Source: Botryococcus braunii (lineage: Eukaryota; Chlorophyta; Trebouxiophyceae). From it: 64,000 nucleotides of DNA. The position numbers were made by a program, and so were the translations under genes. The notes under the pieces are model-generated. The model saw nothing but the letters and a program-made list of their open reading frames with translations, searched no databases and was not told the origin of the DNA. The stretch covers positions 174,035-238,034 of the forward strand of contig KV908400.1 in assembly GCA_002005505.1 (NCBI GenBank), in the 5' to 3' direction. The first letter of the stretch is position 1; every line of letters starts with the position of its first letter. Below, one piece after another: positions 49,935 through 63,486 of the stretch.

Positions 49935-50456
49935 TGGGAACCGTATGGGAGGTATTTGGGCACTATTTGGGAGACATCAGTTTTTGGGATGGTTTTGGGA
50001 ATCAGTATTTTTGGGGGCAGCTTGGGACACATCCCTTTTTGGGAGGTTCATGGGAACCAATATGGGACGCGATTGGGAAATCAAGGATTTTGGGACCTGC
50101 TTGGGGGCCAACTTTGGGATGCTGTTGGGATACTGTATTCTTGGGAGGGTTTTGGGACTCACTTATCTTGGGAGCAGCTTGGGACACATCGTTTTTGGGA
50201 GGTTGATGGGAATTAATATGGGACACGTTTGGGATATCATGGATTTTGGGACCTGCTTGGGGGGCAATTTTGGGAACCTGTTGGGATCCTGTATTTTTGG
50301 GAGTCTGATGGGAAATTTTTTTGGGAATAGTTTGGGAACGCGGGGTTTTTGGGACCTGCTTGGGATCCGATTTTGGGACATGTTTGGAACATCCGAGATT
50401 TTGGGACTTTTTTTGGGAACCCCTGGGACCCTTTTGGGACCTCTTTGGGACAAAAT
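49935..50456. repeat. Right subterminal TTTGGGA array with ~157-bp higher-order repeat
   Basis: Same motif density as the left end and same orientation. Within it a ~157-bp block (beginning CAGCTTGGGACACATC at 50,018 and again at 50,175) is repeated with substitutions, so the array grew by larger duplications as well as motif gain. Confidence 0.8.
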
Positions 50457-51598: not shown

Positions 51599-52838
51599 GA
51601 CGGACGGAATGGAAAGGAAAGAAAAGAATTACATCAATCCAGCCGCAATGGAAGACAAATGCAGTATGTTACACCTTATACACAACAGTGCCAACTTGGC
51701 AGTGCCAAGCCACCCAGGCAAGCAATACTGTTTTGCCAGGAAATAAGAAGAATGCCTTTGAATTAGTCCATCATTTGAACGTTTAAGTCATTACAGAATA
51801 TCAGTCCTTTCCTACAACATGAGCATAAATAACGGATAATTTAAATGTATACTCTCTGATTGTCAAAACAAGTGAAGTGCGTTTATGATAACATCTAGAG
51901 CATCTTATATAACCCCCGTACATTTAATTGACAGTACACGTGAACGGTTCTGTCGAATCGGTTGCCCATGCGGTACTGATAGCCCATCTGATGCCAAAAT
52001 CACTCCTTTTCACATGCCGCCGGACGGCTGGATATGCTTTCCTTAACAACGAATAACATGTAAACATATTTATTAAAGGGTTTGGGGGAATGGGGCTCAT
52101 GCTCCGGCAGACATAGCCGAAGAGCCTTGGCAAGTGTGCTGCCAATCGCCTTTCAGCATGTGTTATGGTTATGTGTGTCCATGGCCCCTGGCTTCAACGT
52201 ACCAGCAGGTAGCTACATGCTAAAGGATCCTATATAGGATATGCGGTTCGCGGGTAGGAGGTCCTTCATCTGTCCTCTGCTTGTGCTGGAAAAGTGGGGG
52301 GAGGGGGGGGATCAAATCTGTGCTGAATTGGGGGAGGGTGGGGGGGGGGGAATAAAATCTGTGCTGAATTGGGGGAAGGGGGGGGGGATCAAATCTGTGC
52401 TGAACAGGGGGAGGGTGGGAGGTGGATCAAATCTGTAGTGATTTGGGGGAGGGTAGGGGGGATTCAAATCTGTGCTGGATTGGGCGAGGGTTGGGGGGAA
52501 TCAATTCTGTACTGAATTGGGGGAGAGTGGGGGGGGGGGTCAAATCTGTGCTGAATTGGGGGAGGGTGGGGGTGATTAAATCTGTGCTGAATTGGGGGAG
52601 AGTAGGGGGGGGATCAAATCTGTGCTGAATTGGGGGAGCGTGAAGGGGGAGGGGGGGGGGGTTTCAAATCTGTGCTGAATTGGGGGAGTTGGAAGCGGGG
52701 GGGATCATATCTGTGTTGGATTGGGGCGGGGGGGGGATCAAACATGAGATGGAAAGGTGGGGGGACTCAATCATGGATGTATACATGCTACGTAGCCCTT
52801 GGGGTGACAATAATAGTCCTTGGTAAAAGGATTCTCCG

Positions 52839-52875
<37 letters not shown>

Positions 52876-54101
52876 ATGGTCCGAATTACCAAGTATCACA
52901 GCTGACGCTGTCAGACATAAACTCACAGGTTGCATGTTCGGCAATCTTCACTCCTAAATGCACTTTGTATGGCCGTCCCAGACAATATCACTGGAATCAT
53001 GTCGCACAAAGACGCCGGAGTCAATACATGTGTGTCATGTTGTAATGTGAGAGACAACAGATGTGTATTTGCCCACCGCCCATTGTACCTCCATCTCCAC
53101 CTACCTCTCGCCCACTGCCGTGCGGCCCCCCCCCCCCCCCCCACAGGTCCTCTATAACCACCGTCCCCAAGCCCACCGCCCCAAGTACCTCCTTCTCCAC
53201 CTCCCCCGCCCCCACCAAACCCTCCCCCCAGACCCCCTCCAGGCAAACCGCCTCCGCCACTTCCGCCAACCCTGGTGCGCTGCGCCCCTCCCCCCTCCAC
53301 GCCCTCCCTCCCTCCCCCCCCCCTTCCACCAATATTTCATAACGCCTATTCCTATATTGACCCTGACTCTAATATTCTCAGGGACCATTCGACCTGAGCA
53401 TATAGCTTTGTTATAGTACGGGGTTGGTGAGATGGAGGACCTGGCCAGGGGGCGGGGGGGCGGCAGTGGGGGAGAGGGAGATGGAGATGGAGGTACAATG
53501 GGCGGTGGGCACGGGCGAGGTGGAGATGCAGATACTGGGGACGATGGGCTCGGAGGAGGTGGAGACTGCTTGCTCTGGCAGCTGTCTACCATGTGCCTGT
53601 CCAAGCAACAGCACAGGAGTCAGCCAGTACGCACCTCAGCTCAACCATGAAGTGCTAGATCCCATGATGCCACGTAGCCAGCAGAATGTACTAGCATCTG
53701 TACATAAGTACATACTATCGGATTGCCACATAAGTATGGACCCCGTTTTGTGGACATGGTAAGGTTTGTTCTACGACTATAAAAATCTACGTTGGGATTG
53801 CGCTCTGACATTTGTTAAACCCGAGACACAATGACATGAGTACACGTAGGTTGTCATGGTTGCAGCAGGTTGGCAATGTTTACGAATTCGAAGCTGCCTG
53901 CGATTGTTTAAACTTGAAAAATATAAAGACATACAAGAAGCCCATGTCCTGCCCTGTGCGAGCCTTGTCGTAGAAGATGTGTCCACTTCACAAGCTGTAG
54001 AGACTATGTAGTGCCTAAAGCACCAAAGAGAGAGATAAAGGCAAGTGGAGAGATGTAGCTCATTACAATATGAGTTGTATCGTTAGTTGTCGCGACCCAG
54101 C

Positions 54102-55045: not shown

Positions 55046-55226
55046 TATTTGACAGATGAAAACCATCAGATTGGTATGTACTGTACATTAAAGGATACGC
55101 CCCTTTGGTGCCCCGTACGTTTCTTCCTGATGCAGAGGGGTTTCTTATCTCGGCTGTGGTTTGCATGCAGAAATCGGGAAAGTTGCATAACTCGCACACC
55201 CACGGGACGCCATAAATCGGGGGTAG

Positions 55227-55640
55227 CTACAGTAAGAACAGGTGCATGAAGCTAGGACCCTTGGGAACCCTAGCTACAGTAAGAACAGGTGCATGAAGCT
55301 AGGACCCGTGGGAACCCTAGCTACAGTAAGAACAGGTGCATGAACCTAGGACCCGTGGGAACCCTAGCTACAGTAAGAACAGGTGCATGAAGCTAGGACC
55401 CGTGGGAACCCTAGCTGCAGTAAGAACAGGTGCATGAAGCTAGGACCCCTGGGAACCCTAGCTACAGTAAGAACAGGTGCATGAACTTAGGACCCGTGGG
55501 AACCCTAGCTACAGTAAGAACAGGTGCATGAACCTAGGACCCGTGGGAACCCTAGCTACAGTAAGAACAGGTGCATTAAGCTAGGACCCGTGGGAACCCT
55601 AGCTACAGTACGAATTGATGCATGACCTAGGACCCATTGA
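55227..55640. repeat. 47-bp tandem array, 9 heterogeneous copies, unit 3
   Basis: Nine copies, with GACCCGTGGG instead of GAGCCGTGGG and several single-base differences between copies (for example CTGCAGTAAG and GACCCCTGGG). This older-looking array contrasts with the homogenised arrays of units 1 and 2. Confidence 0.95.
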
Positions 55641-56109
55641 CTCGTCAAAAGTTTATCTGGACTGATATTGGGGCAAACTCTAGACAAAGCAGCTGCATAA
55701 AACCATCTAAGTAGGCATGAAGGCAAGCCTTCTGTGCCCACAGCTTTCAAATCAAGCCCAAAGATATAACAACTCATTCCAAGCCAACAACGAGCCGCAA
55801 GCTTGCAATTGCACAACCGAACCTTGAGCAGTGAGCCCACCACAAGCCCAACTAGCCATCACGCCCAGGCCAAAATGCCGATGCAGAACATATTATCTGC
55901 ACTGAATCCCCACACAAGCCTGCACAGTCAAACCTCTGCAGGCATGCGCAACTGACCGCTCAGGAAGAAGACCGTCTCCGTCTGTAGTCCACTCACGTGC
56001 ACCCATGTGGCCCACCCATGTGGGAGGCTCCACAACCCAAGTCTCTTTGAATAAAGAGCGCTACAAAGTCTGTTGTGTAGAGGATCCCTTCTGGGAAACC
56101 GCGAGGCCC

Positions 56110-56604: not shown

Positions 56605-57040
56605 TGTTGGGTTTTGTACTTCATTATGTCATGTTAATTAACGTGCGTGCGTGCGTGCGCACGTGCGTGCGTGCGTGCGTGCCTGCGTGCGTGCGTGTGC
56701 GAAGGTACAATCACATGTAATAATTAGCTGTAAGTTAACCAAGCAGTTAACTCAAGGTAAAGACATCTTGACAATGGCTATGAACGATCAGTCTATGAGT
56801 ACTAATGCATTGAGAGATATTTATTCTATGGCTGTAAACACCTTCCAGCCTTCAGTGGCTGGAAGACATGCATCTAGAGTTATTAAATGTGTTACTGTAG
56901 GATAAGGGTCCAAATTCTGTGGATAGAAACCCTGAGCATGTCCTAATGTTCGTGAAAAAGGCCAGTAGCAGTGCTGGACAGCGCGTTTCCCACGCGCTGA
57001 TCTGAGTACAGATAGCCAGAGAACCCGGACCACCAGGCAG

Positions 57041-57455
57041 TCATTCGATCTCTTTGGCTTGTTAAGCCGACTCCTGAATGGACTCATGTGAATTGCTTTC
57101 TTTCTCTCTCACTTGTTGTGAGTAACTTCTGTGGAAGCAATTGCTATACGTGGTAAGTCGGGGCTCTGCCGGTCATGTTTTTTGATCACGGCCATAAGTG
57201 CCGTTTTGATGACCAGAGACTAATATGGGTATGTGAATGTTGCAGAATTGTTCATCAGTTTGACGCTGTCGACTATGTATGTCTTGGTCAAACTGATTAA
57301 GTACATGGTAAGTCAGCTATGTGACGGCTGAGGCATGCTTATAGATAAGGTTCATCATATGCAATGAACTAAAGGTGTTAGTGTCTTCACAGGATGATAT
57401 ACTTGTGAGTATAGTCATCATTTATGATTAATTTAACACCTTTGGATCTTTGCAG
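57041..57455 (+). other. LTR segment A with two canonical introns
   Basis: Exon-like blocks 57,041-57,152 (112 nt), 57,246-57,307 (62 nt) and 57,393-57,455 (63 nt) are separated by 57,153-57,245 (93 nt, GTAAGT..TTGCAG) and 57,308-57,392 (85 nt, GTAAGT..TCACAG). CTAAT and CTAAA branch-like motifs lie 20-35 nt before the acceptors. The introns are defined by comparison with segment B, which lacks exactly these two stretches. The equivalent in the 3' LTR starts at 62,495, with the first intron at 62,607-62,699. Confidence 0.88.
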
Positions 57456-57500
57456 GTAAGACTAGTTAGTGTGTGTGTTCGTTCGGCAGTAGTTTGTAAG

Positions 57501-57737
57501 TCATTCGATCTCTTTGGCTTGTTAAGCCGACTCCTGAATGGACTCATGTGAATTGCTTTCTTTCTCTCTCACTTGTTGTGAGTAACTTCTGTGGAAGCAA
57601 TTGCTATACGTGAATTGTTCATCAGTTTGACGCTGTCGACTATGTATCTCTTGGTCAAACTGATTAAGTACATGGATGATATACTTGTGAGTATAGTCAT
57701 CATTTATGATTAATTTAACACCTTTGGATCTTTGCAG
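57501..57737 (+). other. LTR segment B, spliced (intronless) copy of segment A
   Basis: Blocks of 112, 62 and 63 nt are fused directly: junctions TACGTG|AATTG at 57,612/57,613 and TACATG|GATGA at 57,674/57,675. Block lengths match segment A exactly, and apart from one base the sequence does too. It is preceded by a 45-bp spacer beginning GTAAGACTAG and followed by the LTR end. A further GTGAGT..TTTGCAG stretch at the 3' end is kept in both A and B. Confidence 0.88.
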
Positions 57738-57744
57738 ATCACAA

Positions 57745-57758
57745 TGGTACTGGGCCCA
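57745..57758 (+). other. Primer-binding site of the copia element (tRNA not assigned)
   Basis: TGGTACTGGGCCCA begins one base after the 5' LTR, the position and TGG start expected of a PBS. It does not match the TGGTATCAGAGC used with initiator methionine tRNA by many plant copia elements, so the primer is unassigned. Confidence 0.5.
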
Positions 57759-57763
57759 CATCC

Positions 57764-58224: not shown

Positions 58225-59151
58225 ATGAGTGGGTCAGCTGGTGCATCTGCTCCTGGTGGAGCAACTGGTACAGGTGTTACTGCAGCTGTTGTATCAGGCA
58301 GCACAGGAGACCCACTAAACCCGGTCTATAACACACAGAAGTTGGCCCAATCACTTGATGTGTTATGCATAAATGGTTTCAGATGGATGAAGGATGTAGA
58401 GAATGTTGCTAGTAGCAAGAAAATCAAGGTGTGTTTGGACGAGGAACATCCTGATACACCAGGTGATGCTTTGGCTAAGAGCCTAGTTACTGAAAAAATT
58501 CCAGATGAGTGGGTTGATGCAGCTCTGGACAAGCCTTCAGCCAAGGAGGCGTATGACTGGCTGAAAGGCAAGTTCACAGGCGGAAAGAACCAGAAGCTCA
58601 TGTCAAAATGGGCATTTCTGCTTGACTCGGGTAAAATTGAGGATGCCCAGACTTACATGGCATTTGTGGCCCTGAAGTACAAGCTGGCTAGAGGTTTGAG
58701 GGCTAACAAACACCCTGTTGATGAGGAGCGCCTTGCCATGGGTATAGTTAGCTGTCTTCCCAAGGCCTTTACCCACAGTCAGTCCCATTTGTATGATTCA
58801 TGCGTGGGGAAAGATGAGGATGAGGTTGTATCTCGTATCAGTGCATGTGCGAAGTTTCTGGGCATTGATCAGGAGAAAGCTCCCTCTGCTTCTGCAAATC
58901 TTGTCCCCTCTGGTCCCCCTAGACCAAAGAATGCACCTGGGTTTGATGGCAATAGACCCAGGGGCATGCCCCATGACGTGCCTACCAACTTTCATGGGTG
59001 CTGGTTCTGCTTAGAGGAGGGTCACATCAGGCTGAATTGTCAGAAGTACAAAGATGATTGCGCCAGAAGGGCTGCAATCCTGGCTGGCAGAGGGCGACCT
59101 CAAAATCCTGTAGGAGGAATGGCAACTACATACTCCTCTGACTCAGACTAG
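58225..59151 (+). CDS. Copia Gag (capsid/nucleocapsid)
   Basis: 308 codons. The start follows a ~180-nt leader after the small open frame. The body has the UBN2/Gag-type helical region (SAKEAYDWLKGKFTGG, KWAFLLDSGKIEDAQ, EERLAMGIVSCLPKAF) and ends with one CCHC zinc knuckle CWFCLEEGHIRLNC (C-x2-C-x4-H-x4-C, residues about 259-272), the RNA-binding nucleocapsid motif. The stop TAG is at 59,149-59,151. Pol lies in the +1 frame and is open from 59,114, giving a 38-nt overlap in which a +1 frameshift could fuse Gag to Pol. No protease motif follows the knuckle, unlike standard copia polyproteins. Confidence 0.9.
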   Translation: MSGSAGASAPGGATGTGVTAAVVSGSTGDPLNPVYNTQKLAQSLDVLCINGFRWMKDVENVASSKKIKVCLDEEHPDTPGDALAKSLVTEKIPDEWVDAALDKPSAKEAYDWLKGKFTGGKNQKLMSKWAFLLDSGKIEDAQTYMAFVALKYKLARGLRANKHPVDEERLAMGIVSCLPKAFTHSQSHLYDSCVGKDEDEVVSRISACAKFLGIDQEKAPSASANLVPSGPPRPKNAPGFDGNRPRGMPHDVPTNFHGCWFCLEEGHIRLNCQKYKDDCARRAAILAGRGRPQNPVGGMATTYSSDSD

Positions 59152-59206: not shown

Positions 59207-62026
59207 ATGGATATTGTGGGTGAACTGCCTGTACCGGGTGCTGAAGGAGAGAGATACATGCTCACCATGCTGGATGATTTCTCAAAGGCGGGTGTTGCCA
59301 GGGCATTGGTCCTGAAGTCTCAGGTGGGTGATGCTGTTAGAGCAATTCTCCTGTACTTAGAAAATCAGACTGGCCATACTGTAAAAGTTGTCAGGACTGA
59401 TAGAGGTACTGAGTTTGTAAACTCAGATTTGCGTGAGTTCTTTCAGTCAAAGGGGATAAGACACGAGACGTCTGCCCCTTATACCCCGCAACAAAATGGC
59501 CGGGCGGAACGCTTTAACCGTTCCTTGAAAGAGAAGGTTAGAATGTTGCTGCTACAGGCTAAGGCTCCACAAAGCTTGTGGACCGAAGCGCTGCCTACTG
59601 CTGTTAGGTTACTAAACCTCAGGGCAATTAAGGGGAAGACTGCTACCCCCTATGAGCTATTATTTGGCAGGAAGCCTGCTGTTCATTACTTGAGGGTATT
59701 TGGCTGTCTGGCATACATCAAAACGCCTGACAAGGATCTGTCTGCCTTTTCTCCTAGATCAGAGGCAGGAATGTTTGTCGGGTACGAACCAGCATCTAAG
59801 GCATATAGAGTGCTGGTTGGGGATAAGATCAAGGTGTCAAAAAATGTGAAATTTTTTGAAGACAAATTGGGTATCCACACTCTCTCTACTGATACCCAAC
59901 TGCCCCCTGATTTCCCACGTGATGTAAACTGTGATCAGGTGCCAAGCTCTGCAGACGAAGAGGACTGGGATTTTGTCCCAGTTGACGTTGCTGAGGCAGT
60001 GGACATGAACAGGGAAGCTGGAAGGGGAGAAGACCAAATCCTACCAGCTAACCTAGAAGTGTTGCAGAGACTCAATGAAGTACTAAGGCAACAAGCTCAG
60101 GCGGAAGAGAGTGGGAACAGGGATACACATGGTCCAGGCGTCTCAGGGGAAGAGTCAATGGGCCCTGGGGATGAGCAGGAACAGCCAGGAGATGGTGAAA
60201 ATGATCCCGGTAGTGACTCGGATCAGGACCGCTCATCACAGGAGTCTGACAGTGGGGATGAGGCGCAGGACAGGGTAAGAGGTGGGATGAGTAGGTATGA
60301 TCTTAGAGAGACACTTGCTCAACCTGATAAGTATATACCTGGATCTTACTTTGTCAAAGACGATGCGATAGCAGAAGCAACAGGGGTCACATCACCTAAC
60401 CAAAATGGTGCAAAGGAGAAGGAGGTCCTATCTTCTAGGAATGTAAAAATCCCTAACGATTGGTTTGAGGCGAGGAATTCACCTCAATGGGTATACTGGA
60501 AGGAGGCTATGAATGAGGAAATGGACTCAATTGAGTCTCATGAGACATTTGAATACTGTCACAAGCCTTCCCATGCCAAGGTGATCCCACTGAAGTCGGT
60601 TTATGCAATAAAAACTGATGGTTTTGGGGATGTAATCAGGTTCAAGGCGAGGCTTGTGGCACAAGGATGCAAACAAAGACCAGGGGTAGATTATTTTGAG
60701 ACTTTTGCTCCTGTCAGTACACACTCATCCAGGCGTGTGCTTCTGAATCTGGCAAACGCTAAGGGATGGAAGGTACATCAGGTAGATATTAAAACTGCCT
60801 TTCTTAATGGGTCCTTAGAGGAGGAAGTTTATGTAACTCAACCCCCCTGTTTCTCTAATGGTGATTCGAGTACAGTATGTAAGCTTCTGAAATCATTGTA
60901 TGGCCTGAAGCAGGCCCCACGCGCGTGGCACAAGCGCCTTGTTGAAGAGCTTAGCAAGTTTGGCTTTACTGCCTGCAAAAGCGATTCATCTCTGTTTGTC
61001 AACAAGGAATCCTATGAGTCACATGTTTACTTGCTGACTTATGTTGATGACTTGTTGATTGTATGCAAGGAAGGGGAAACCATTGAGCAAGTCAAATCTA
61101 AGCTCACTTGTATTTTCTCTATTCATGATCTTGGTGAGATTAAATCATTTCTGGGATGTGAAATCACCAAAGATGAGACCACTGGGAGCCTCAAGATGAC
61201 TAACGTATTAAAAATTGAGAGGCTGGTCGAGGACTATGGACTTCCTGCACAAGGCAGGGATGTTGATACTCCAATGGCGCATGGGTTTGTCACTTCACAA
61301 AATCCAGAGCCACCCTTGGGGGCTGGTGGTGAGCAGGTAGGAGCAGGCACACCATTGCCAGAGGGTCACAGGTATCTGGAGCTCGTGGGATCACTACAAT
61401 ACCTAGCTACCACAACTAGGCCTGACATAGCTCAGGCTGTGGGGGTTTTGAGTCGGTTCAGGGGGCAACCTACGACAGCGCATTGGAATGGTGCTATAAG
61501 AGTACTGAGGTACTTAAATTGCACTAAGGAAATGGGCATAATGTACACCAACTCTGGTGACAATGAGTTGGTGGGATACGTGGATGCAGATTTTGCTGGT
61601 GACTTGGATGGAAGAAAATCAACCACAGGGTTTGTTCTTCTTCTAAACGGGTCAGCAGTGTCTTGGTGCAGCAAGAAGCAATCTTCAGTGTCTACATCTA
61701 CTGTGGAAGCTGAATTTGTTGCGACTGCTGCAGCAGTAAAGGAGGTAATGTGGATGGGTGGTATGCTGGAAGAGCTTGGAGTCACAGTGAAGACTGTCAA
61801 GCTATTCTGTGACAATCAAGGGGCTATACAGCACTTAAAAAATCACATAGTGTCAAAGTTCACTAAGCATATCAGCATCAGCTATCATTATGCACGTGAG
61901 AAAGTGGCTTGGGGGCAGATTGACCCTGTCTATGTTGCTACATCTGAAAATGTAGCAGATATGTTTACCAAACCACTGGCATCTGCTGCATTTGAGAAGC
62001 ATAGGGCTAAATTGGGTGTGTCATGA
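59207..62026 (+). CDS. Copia Pol: integrase, reverse transcriptase, RNase H (protease missing)
   Basis: 939 codons from the first ATG; the frame is open from 59,114 and reads YPRSPATATERLEIVH before that ATG, so the ATG is probably not the true start. The integrase core has D2 (HMDIVGE), D65 (RTDRGTEF) and E101 (QQNGRAERFNR), the DD35E triad. Reverse transcriptase: FKARLVAQG, QVDIKTAFLNG (about 525-535), SLYGLKQAPRAW (about 562-573) and catalytic YVDD (612-615). RNase H: YVDADFAGD (D793), TVEAEF, CDNQGA, ENVADMFTKPL. The protease and the HHCC pre-integrase part are absent: the frame begins where the pre-integrase region normally ends. No in-frame stops, so it was recently functional or mobilised in trans. 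Confidence 0.93.
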   Translation: MDIVGELPVPGAEGERYMLTMLDDFSKAGVARALVLKSQVGDAVRAILLYLENQTGHTVKVVRTDRGTEFVNSDLREFFQSKGIRHETSAPYTPQQNGRAERFNRSLKEKVRMLLLQAKAPQSLWTEALPTAVRLLNLRAIKGKTATPYELLFGRKPAVHYLRVFGCLAYIKTPDKDLSAFSPRSEAGMFVGYEPASKAYRVLVGDKIKVSKNVKFFEDKLGIHTLSTDTQLPPDFPRDVNCDQVPSSADEEDWDFVPVDVAEAVDMNREAGRGEDQILPANLEVLQRLNEVLRQQAQAEESGNRDTHGPGVSGEESMGPGDEQEQPGDGENDPGSDSDQDRSSQESDSGDEAQDRVRGGMSRYDLRETLAQPDKYIPGSYFVKDDAIAEATGVTSPNQNGAKEKEVLSSRNVKIPNDWFEARNSPQWVYWKEAMNEEMDSIESHETFEYCHKPSHAKVIPLKSVYAIKTDGFGDVIRFKARLVAQGCKQRPGVDYFETFAPVSTHSSRRVLLNLANAKGWKVHQVDIKTAFLNGSLEEEVYVTQPPCFSNGDSSTVCKLLKSLYGLKQAPRAWHKRLVEELSKFGFTACKSDSSLFVNKESYESHVYLLTYVDDLLIVCKEGETIEQVKSKLTCIFSIHDLGEIKSFLGCEITKDETTGSLKMTNVLKIERLVEDYGLPAQGRDVDTPMAHGFVTSQNPEPPLGAGGEQVGAGTPLPEGHRYLELVGSLQYLATTTRPDIAQAVGVLSRFRGQPTTAHWNGAIRVLRYLNCTKEMGIMYTNSGDNELVGYVDADFAGDLDGRKSTTGFVLLLNGSAVSWCSKKQSSVSTSTVEAEFVATAAAVKEVMWMGGMLEELGVTVKTVKLFCDNQGAIQHLKNHIVSKFTKHISISYHYAREKVAWGQIDPVYVATSENVADMFTKPLASAAFEKHRAKLGVS

Positions 62027-62066: not shown

Positions 62067-63197
62067 TGTTGGGTTTTGTACTTCATTATGTCATGTTAAT
62101 TAACGTGCGTGCGTGCGTGCGCACGTGCGTGCGTGCCTGCGTGCGTGCGTGTGCGAAGGTACAATCACATGTAATAATTAGCTGTAAGTTAACCAAGCAG
62201 TTAACTCAAGGTAAAGACATCTTGACAATGGCTATGAACGATCAGTCTATGAGTACTAATGCATTGAGAGATATTTATTCTATGGCTGTAAACACCTTCC
62301 AGCCTTCAGTGGCTGGAAGACATGCATCTAGAGTTATTAAATGTGTTACTGTAGGATAAGGGTCCAAATTCTGTGGATAGAAACCCTGAGCATGTCCTAA
62401 TGTTCGTGAAAAAGGCCAGTAGCAGTGCTGGACAGCGCGTTTCCCACGCGCTGATCTGAGTACAGATAGCCAGAGAACCCGGACCACCAGGCAGTCATTC
62501 GATCTCTTTGGCTTGTTAAGCCGACTCCTGAATGGACTCATGTGAATTGCTTTCTTTCTCTCTCACTTGTTGTGAGTAACTTCTGTGGAAGCAATTGCTA
62601 TACGTGGTAAGTCGGGGCTCTGCCGGTCATGTTTTTTGATCACGGCCATAAGTGCCGTTTTGATGACCAGAGACTAATATGGGTATGTGAATGTTGCAGA
62701 ATTGTTCATCAGTTTGACGCTGTCGACTATGTATGTCTTGGTCAAACTGATTAAGTACATGGTAAGTCAGCTATGTGACGGCTGAGGCATGCTTATAGAT
62801 AAGGTTCATCATATGCAATGAACTAAAGGTGTTAGTGTCTTCACAGGATGATATACTTGTGAGTATAGTCATCATTTATGATTAATTTAACACCTTTGGA
62901 TCTTTGCAGGTAAGACTAGTTAGTGTGTGTGTTCGTTCGGCAGTAGTTTGTAAGTCATTCGATCTCTTTGGCTTGTTAAGCCGACTCCTGAATGGACTCA
63001 TGTGAATTGCTTTCTTTCTCTCTCACTTGTTGTGAGTAACTTCTGTGGAAGCAATTGCTATACGTGAATTGTTCATCAGTTTGACGCTGTCGACTATGTA
63101 TGTCTTGGTCAAACTGATTAAGTACATGGATGATATACTTGTGAGTATAGTCATCATTTATGATTAATTTAACACCTTTGGATCTTTGCAGATCACA
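62067..63197 (+). repeat. 3' LTR of the copia element
   Basis: Same layout as the 5' LTR, including intron-containing segment A from 62,495 and the spliced segment B ending at 63,191. Eight bases shorter in the GTGC microsatellite. Followed by TSD GCCAG. Confidence 0.95.
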
Positions 63198-63486
63198 GCC
63201 AGGCCTCGCAGGATAGTCTGAACATTCTGGAGGCCCATGGCTTCTAGATGTCCGGCTACGTATGGAGCATTTTGCTCAGCACTGTACGTCATGATGACCG
63301 ATAACGTCATGTTCACAGACCCGCACTCTGGGTAAGGGGAGATATTGTGGCAACTGCAATCTCCATCGGGGCAACTGCCGGAAGAGCAGGAGGGGGCGTT
63401 CCATTCGCAGAGTTCCATGCGACACGATCCAACTCCATCATAACCAATCCAAATGAGCATGTGTGCCCAGATGGGCGACCAACACA
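63198..63486 (-). pseudogene. Cys/Leu-rich protein exon of unit 4, N-terminal half
   Basis: N-terminal half of the exon interrupted by the copia element. It starts after the acceptor TCTTCTTGCAG just above 63,486 and keeps the cysteine-rich segment and the AMGLQNVQTI motif. It ends at the right TSD copy GCCAG (63,198-63,202). The alternative in-frame ATG is at 63,526. Without excision of the element no complete protein can be made from this copy. Confidence 0.7.

Follow-up and report, generated by a model that had tools for sequence, protein, structure and literature searches.

A Botryococcus braunii copia LTR that probably has three leader introns and rewrites its own spliced copy

The long terminal repeats (LTRs) of a copia-type element of the green alga Botryococcus braunii contain an intron-bearing leader segment (A) and, behind a short spacer, an exactly spliced copy of the same segment (B). 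Judging from the genomic sequence, we consider it quite probable that this is a copia LTR with three leader introns which rewrites its own spliced copy. With somewhat less confidence, although still as the likely course of events, we propose that the introns are carried through reverse transcription indefinitely: the leader would be inherited as U3, and its spliced cDNA would be rewritten as R-U5 in most cycles and would supply the acceptor of intron 3. The window analyzed is a stretch of 64 kb (contig KV908400.1), in which one copia-type element was found, with the 5-bp target-site duplication (TSD) GCCAG on both sides. The features of this element are summarized in Table 1.

Table 1. Features of the copia-type element and its LTRs (positions of the window)
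Feature	Position	Strand	Remarks
5' LTR	56605..57743	+	1139 nt, TG...CA ends, GCCAG TSD
A exon 1	57039..57152	+	start of the repeat; putative transcript start at or just after AGTCATTCG
Intron 1	57153..57245	+	GTAAGT...TTGCAG, missing from B
A exon 2	57246..57307	+	from alignment to B
Intron 2	57308..57392	+	GTAAGT...TCACAG, missing from B
A exon 3	57393..57455	+	ends TTTGCAG; its copy in B is the would-be acceptor end of putative intron 3
Putative intron 3 (spacer + B)	57456..57737	+	CAG/GTAAGA ... TTGCAG/ATC (slash, splice site)
TGTAA, putative poly(A) signal	57495..57499	+	spacer/B boundary, overlaps start of B
B	57499..57737	+	spliced copy of A exons 1-3; first ~10-20 nt putative R
ATCACA, LTR 3' end	57738..57743	+	follows exon 3 without a gap in B and in single forms
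Primer-binding-site region	57744..57763	+	directly 3' of 5' LTR
gag-like ORF	58225..59151	+	zinc-knuckle motif by eye; no Pfam match
pol ORF	59207..62026	+	partial integrase core, SH3-like domain, RVT_2 (copia type)
3' LTR	62067..63197	+	1131 nt; GCCAG directly after (63198-63202)
A of 3' LTR	62493..62909	+	both introns present
B of 3' LTR	62953..63191	+	identical to its A exons

The LTR pair with TG...CA ends and the 5-bp TSD are those of a Ty1/copia element, and the order of the pol domains (PF00665, PF25597, then PF07727) places the integrase core ahead of an RVT_2-type reverse transcriptase, as in copia elements. The integrase match starts late, profile position 10 falling on the first residue of the pol ORF in the window. 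The closest pol relatives with organism names were from Volvox, Haematococcus, and Gonium (~39-42% identity over ~40-56% of the query), and land plants were among the other matches. The 5' and 3' LTRs are distinguished by a single substitution and by a GTGC repeat whose length differs by 8 nt. The window copy is shorter than its siblings, with an LTR-to-LTR spacing of 5454 nt compared to 6017 nt in several others; in the family to which it belongs (family 1), 21 LTR pairs were matched up by position and TSD. The region directly behind the 5' LTR presumably resembles an internal fragment of initiator tRNA-Met, and a search of the window for tRNA genes found none. This stretch differs among copies (L011, L043, L059, L100, and others: ATGGTACTGG, ATGGTTATGG, ATGGTTCTGG), perhaps because the copies use different primer tRNAs or because the primer site was repaired.

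Each LTR of the element is ordered as A (exon 1-intron 1-exon 2-intron 2-exon 3), a spacer of 45 nt, B, and ATCACA. A preliminary description of this DNA had reported A and B as sharing three blocks, and alignment of A to B reproduced its coordinates and block lengths, except that the repeat begins 2 nt earlier, at 57039. The first block (57041-57152 and 57501-57612) and the third (57393-57455 and 57675-57737) are identical at 112/112 and 63/63 positions. The second (57246-57307 and 57613-57674) matches at 61/62 positions, with G at 57281 and C at 57648, a mismatch that is absent from the 3' LTR. Counted from 57039, where it starts with AGTCATTCG, the first-block repeat spans 114 nt and is present in four copies. 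B is devoid of exactly the two GT..AG stretches that had been named (93 and 85 nt; introns 1 and 2), and exons 1-3 are joined scarlessly. As had been claimed, the arrangement occurs in both LTRs, the 3' LTR repeating it at +5454; the exons of A and B are 99.6% and 100% alike in the two LTRs. GT..AG ends together with exact removal in a cDNA-like copy mark introns 1 and 2 as spliceosomal introns, in the sister family described below as well as here. With the junctions exact, the origin of B from reverse-transcribed spliced A, as first suggested, is still the best reading.

The 697-nt unit of A, spacer, and B was matched over its whole length at 40/40 scored places out of 196 candidates (in one case without the last base). 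Furthermore, pattern searches of the genome with up to two mismatches returned 108 matches for the spliced junction and 102 for the donor of intron 1, while the reversed-pattern controls for both gave 0 matches under the same threshold. The A/B layout is thus neither a product of chance nor a local artefact.

From the places listed (100 of the 108 spliced-junction and 100 of the 102 intron-1-donor matches), 118 LTR regions of family 1 were obtained and sorted by their blocks. The A+B layout is the norm of the family, the spacer being kept in 97/118 regions. Complete A-spacer-B was found in 84 regions, A-spacer-B with a small duplication in exon 2 in one, A-spacer-A-spacer-B in another one (C89), and a spacer with an incomplete A or B in 11. 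Ten regions were scored as intronless single forms; in one of them, L066, exon 1 is truncated and U3 is missing, and setting it aside leaves nine intronless LTRs in seven insertions (C105 and C595 have common flanks, and C332 contributes a pair). Two regions retained only intron 1 (C3 and C44), two had introns 1 and 2 without spacer or B (the C326 pair), and seven ended before the spacer. Neither an intron-2-only form nor A-spacer-B-spacer-B was present among the 118 regions. Both introns were found in all 90 complete A segments preceding a spacer in the 97 spacer-bearing regions, and five further regions (L134-L138) kept both in A as well. In every single form examined, exon 3 is joined straight to ATCACA; exact patterns counted over both families gave 129 exon-3 ends followed by the donor and 148 followed by ATCACA.

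In a midpoint-rooted tree of the U3 regions of 108 LTRs, the few intronless single-form LTRs occur at several places. In the comparison of family forms and their phylogeny, which the preliminary description had called for, the A+B form predominates and is carried by the deepest branches of the U3 tree. As a side observation, C105 (L045) and C595 (L114) as well as C538 (L107) and C772 (L124) have identical LTR flanks on two contigs, so the assembly may contain both haplotypes or duplicated stretches.

In two insertions, the form differs between the two LTRs. C44 (L028 and L029; TSD GGTCT) has an intron-1-only 5' LTR and an A+B 3' LTR, and C89 (L041 and L042) has one A-A-B and one A-B LTR, its TSD GTGTG lying inside a GT repeat and hence being weak. 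Both seem to result from slippage between A and B, and an assembly error is possible. A-A-B and single forms in general can arise from such slippage. The A-A-B, B-only, intron-1-only, and intron-1+2-only LTRs had been considered to record directly that a template was unspliced or partly spliced; they were dropped as proof because crossovers between A and B in exon 1, 2, or 3 yield identical arrangements and an intron-2-only form is missing.

A second family with the same LTR order was picked up by the pattern of intron 2. Its exons 1, 2, and 3 measure 125, 60, and 64 nt, and its B 249 nt. Intron 1 (92 nt, GTAAGACT...TTCTACAG) has TACTAAC upstream of the acceptor and is followed, behind exon 2, by an intron 2 of 83 nt (GTAAGCCG...GTTGACAG); the spacer comprises 42 nt (GTGAGATT...TTGTA). 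The whole sister unit was matched at 36/40 scored places (196 candidates), at 35 of them with at least 96% identity and at one, C486, with 83%. AGTCATTCG opens A and B in this family as it does in family 1, and AGTCATCCG opens them in C486. Intron 2 is homologous between both families (~69% by BLAST), and intron 1 occupies the same position and is alignable. Intronless single forms occur here as well (C35, C145, and C192; C11 is partly N), and C616 and C472 hold introns 1 and 2 without a spacer.

The exons of the two families are only 64% identical, yet in six of the seven sister A+B LTRs fetched the joined exons of A equal B, and in the seventh they are 99.6% alike. In each family, A and B agree even in exon 2, small as it is. 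Passive inheritance of the two side by side would have let A and B of one LTR drift apart nearly as far as the families, which have diverged by about one third; this is not observed, which argues that B was repeatedly rewritten. The divergent C486 (L139), whose A and B are 91.5% alike and are 82.7 and 80.7% like those of the sister family, exhibits 34 changes common to A and B, compared to seven confined to A, 12 confined to B, and two sites changed differently in both.

Concerted change within family 1 was assessed with 85 LTRs having complete A and B exons, which were grouped by TSD and flank into 62 insertions (L041 and L069 were merged on a GT-repeat flank, possibly wrongly); 12 spacer-bearing regions with incomplete exons were excluded. 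Eleven exon substitutions were present in at least three insertions. Seven of these were common to A and B, in 19/20, 15/15, 13/13, 4/4, 4/4, 4/4, and 3/3 of the insertions, two of the 4/4 substitutions being at neighbouring sites. 255 A>C was found in both segments in 14/18 insertions and was discordant in 4/18. Of the others, 109 A>G was confined to B in 3/3 insertions, 256 T>C to B in 3/4 and to A in one, and 255 A>T to B in 3/4. Among 22 substitutions occurring in exactly two insertions, none was in A and B of both, and three were so in one. With B rewritten in every cycle, an inherited variant is expected in both segments; such variants are thus either repeated private mutations, as we take most of them to be, or evidence against strict rewriting, and their lack of A+B sharing slightly lowers the odds of the rewriting model. 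Overall, the mean difference between A and B within an LTR was 2.98, compared to 5.03 with B shuffled (lowest of 2000 shuffles, 4.55). The variant 109 A>G also marks L058-L060; in L060, A belongs to one haplotype group and B carries the variant of the L058/L059 type, a pattern that would fit a transfer of strong-stop cDNA between RNAs.

The spacer and B together look like a third intron of the transcript from which B would be copied. The donor-like start of the spacer is conserved in 93/94 family-1 LTRs, and the acceptor-like end of B in 90/91; such GT..AG ends, conserved across copies, are what is expected of a spliceosomal intron. Its counterpart in the sister family reads GTGAGA...TTGCAG. 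B plus ATCACA is the exact product of removing introns 1, 2, and 3 from a transcript beginning at A, and exon 3 would have to end in an acceptor-like sequence since its copy in B would serve as the acceptor. Of the nine blocks compared in 84 LTRs, none varies more than the spacer (minority bases, 3.04% per site); the rate is 3.85% between the donor and TGTAAG, and 0.95% and 0.20% in the donor and TGTAAG themselves. The boundary sequence TTTGTAAG was found in 94/96 family-1 LTRs. According to PMC3439250, TGTAA is the main poly(A) signal of Chlamydomonas, with a mean distance of 14 nt to the poly(A) site downstream of it, though only 12/26 tails of that study had TGTAA within 22 nt. A TGTAA at the spacer/B boundary could place the RNA 3' end there without any read-through. 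In L129, the one LTR of the sister family that was scanned, the TGTAA at this boundary is the only one; the family-1 LTR of the window contains four, which weakens the argument for a poly(A) site from TGTAA alone. Neither this motif nor intron 3, which may close the rewriting cycle, had been part of the preliminary description.

The replication cycle that we propose would start with transcription from A, at AGTCATTCG, and splicing of introns 1, 2, and 3, so that the 5' end of the RNA would read exon 1-exon 2-exon 3-ATCACA, followed by the primer site. The 3' end would be cut shortly 3' of the boundary TGTAA, leaving an RNA that ends in U3, unspliced A, the spacer, and the first nucleotides of B; these nucleotides could act as R because A begins with the same bases. 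Strong-stop cDNA, consisting of B and ATCACA, would then be transferred to this short R, a step of which the product is seen and the act is presumed. Its extension through the spacer, unspliced A, and U3 would give a new LTR of the order U3-A-spacer-B-ATCACA. The introns would survive as A is inherited unspliced as part of U3, with B refreshed from A in most cycles; single-form LTRs could result from transfer to A rather than B, or from A/B slippage. The RNA start site, the poly(A) site, and intron 3 are proposed from the genomic sequence. In the route sketched earlier, strong-stop cDNA from a spliced 5' end moved onto an unspliced 3' end, which does yield the layout seen and is retained here. 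Its restriction to a single past event at a read-through end does not agree with the likeness of A and B across diverged families or with shared substitutions lying mostly in both segments.

The layout and the exact junctions would also be accounted for if an unusual strand transfer had produced B a single time and the two segments had been passively inherited ever since, and some B-only or A-only variants are indeed common to two or three insertions. This is very improbable given that A equals B within the LTRs of families with such dissimilar exons, that the shared changes in C486 far exceed the private ones, and that widely shared substitutions are mostly in both segments. A one-off origin of B was rejected; it could be saved only if B had arisen recently and independently in every family. 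Alternatively, the likeness of A and B might be owed to exchange between the direct repeats, by DNA recombination or template slippage, instead of repeated retro-splicing. C44 and C89 suggest such exchange, and crossovers in exon 1, 2, or 3 explain every single form; however, exchange over blocks of ~60 nt should yield A segments that miss an intron or B segments that carry one, and all 90 complete A segments before a spacer keep both. The agreement of even the small exon 2 likewise speaks against this explanation, which we regard as decidedly unlikely.

B might also be rewritten without any intron 3, only introns 1 and 2 being spliced, if the reverse transcriptase, while making strong-stop cDNA, jumped from B onto spliced A. 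This scheme needs two introns only and agrees with the apparent A/B slippage, but it is unlikely nonetheless: it leaves the kept spacer donor of both families and the acceptor-like end of exon 3 unexplained and, if the jump is omitted, predicts the A-spacer-B-spacer-B form that is missing from the 118 regions. The opposite polarity, in which B represents the original form and A acquired the two stretches later in the manner of introners, had been named in the preliminary description as the case that would overturn its reading. Intronless single forms exist in both families. Yet these LTRs are scattered over several places of the U3 tree, and intron 2 is homologous and intron 1 co-positioned between families. 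Moreover, no copies of the introns were found outside LTRs, all 100 places listed for each intron pattern (of 107 and 136) lying in the fetched LTR regions, and thus none of the listed places shows an intron copy at another site with a TSD, as expected of introner elements. As far as the tree and the locations of the intron patterns reach, intron gain fails and was rejected; its probability appears close to negligible.

Some observations do not sit easily with the proposed rewriting of B from A. The acceptor of intron 2 is changed from AG to AT in 9/94 LTRs at several sites (e.g., L053, L060, L074, L103, and L104); a haplotype group was assigned to five of the nine, and it was the same for all five. 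Seven of the nine LTRs nevertheless have a complete, spliced B, and in the remaining two B is cut. Since an A with a broken acceptor cannot have been the template, B would have to come from a sibling RNA or, at times, be handed down directly, and these nine LTRs do not fit strict self-copying. The model also requires that the same introns are spliced at the 5' end of the RNA and spared in the 3' LTR copy. Candidates for this sparing are cap-dependent splicing of first introns, an RNA structure of the kind suggested for foamy viruses, or the loss of intronless progeny. Folding of the spliced leader gave z = -2.67 for family 1 (57499-57737; 0/200 shuffles as good) and z = -3.29 for the sister family (L128:1434-1682; 1/200). 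The hairpins lie mostly inside single exons, and a consensus of four rows, one of them partial, had 4 compensated pairs of 47; leader structure was set aside as support because the sequences are too few.

In retroelements, the loss of introns present in the template RNA is expected. We know of no report of introns or of a leader cDNA copy in the LTRs of green-algal Ty1/copia elements, with which the present element (compare Volvox, Haematococcus, and Gonium) shares the integrase-then-RVT_2 pol, the 5-bp TSD, and the TG...CA LTRs; Osser of Volvox has short LTRs. The introns of Ogre, EVADE, and Cer1 are located in the internal region, whereas here the template's own leader carries them, inside the LTR, which also keeps the spliced copy. 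As stated in PMC12786077, plant Ogre and EVADE and Cer1 of C. elegans are LTR elements with functional splicing, the introns of Ogre and EVADE serving subgenomic RNAs. The donor at 57456 and the TGTAA at 57495 are both conserved; if TGTAA acts as the poly(A) signal, the arrangement would resemble that of foamy viruses. To our knowledge, the foamy virus LTR holds neither whole introns nor a cDNA copy of a spliced leader. PMC3694450 describes a major splice donor in that LTR upstream of the poly(A) signal, with polyadenylation taking place at the 3' LTR but being suppressed at the 5' LTR, and RNA structure proposed as an explanation. Penelope-like elements keep introns through retrotransposition, for which an antisense template has been hypothesized (PMC3846280); they differ in their enzymes and replication, and that hypothesis invokes an antisense template and not retention in the U3 of an LTR.

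Phrase searches of the open-licence PMC literature found no paper describing introns within an LTR or a spliced copy there; PMC5542766, PMC4256276, and PMC12786077 treat other subjects. One scan of viral contigs with an exact 22-base pattern of the LTR end gave no match. We file the element as copia with a new LTR variant and not as a new class of element. If the proposed cycle is true, a copia element stably keeps three leader introns by placing the intron-bearing segment in U3, and every LTR is a heritable DNA record of the latest splicing of its leader. Splicing history, strand transfer between RNAs, and A/B slippage would then be legible from genome sequence alone, and a sharp question is raised: how can one RNA have the same sequence spliced at its 5' end but left intact at its 3' end?

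Other repeats were found in the window upstream of the element. A minisatellite with 47-nt units spans 55177-55693 (at least eight overlapping register copies of 188 nt), and a G-rich array of ~37-nt units (CTGTGCTGAATTGGGGGAGGG...) spans 52282-52772. Diverged repeats of the type TTGGGA...GGGACCTGCTTGGGGG occupy 50002-50430, and an inverted repeat (53070-53133 and 53448-53511) has arms of 64 nt that are 88% complementary and lie 314 nt apart.
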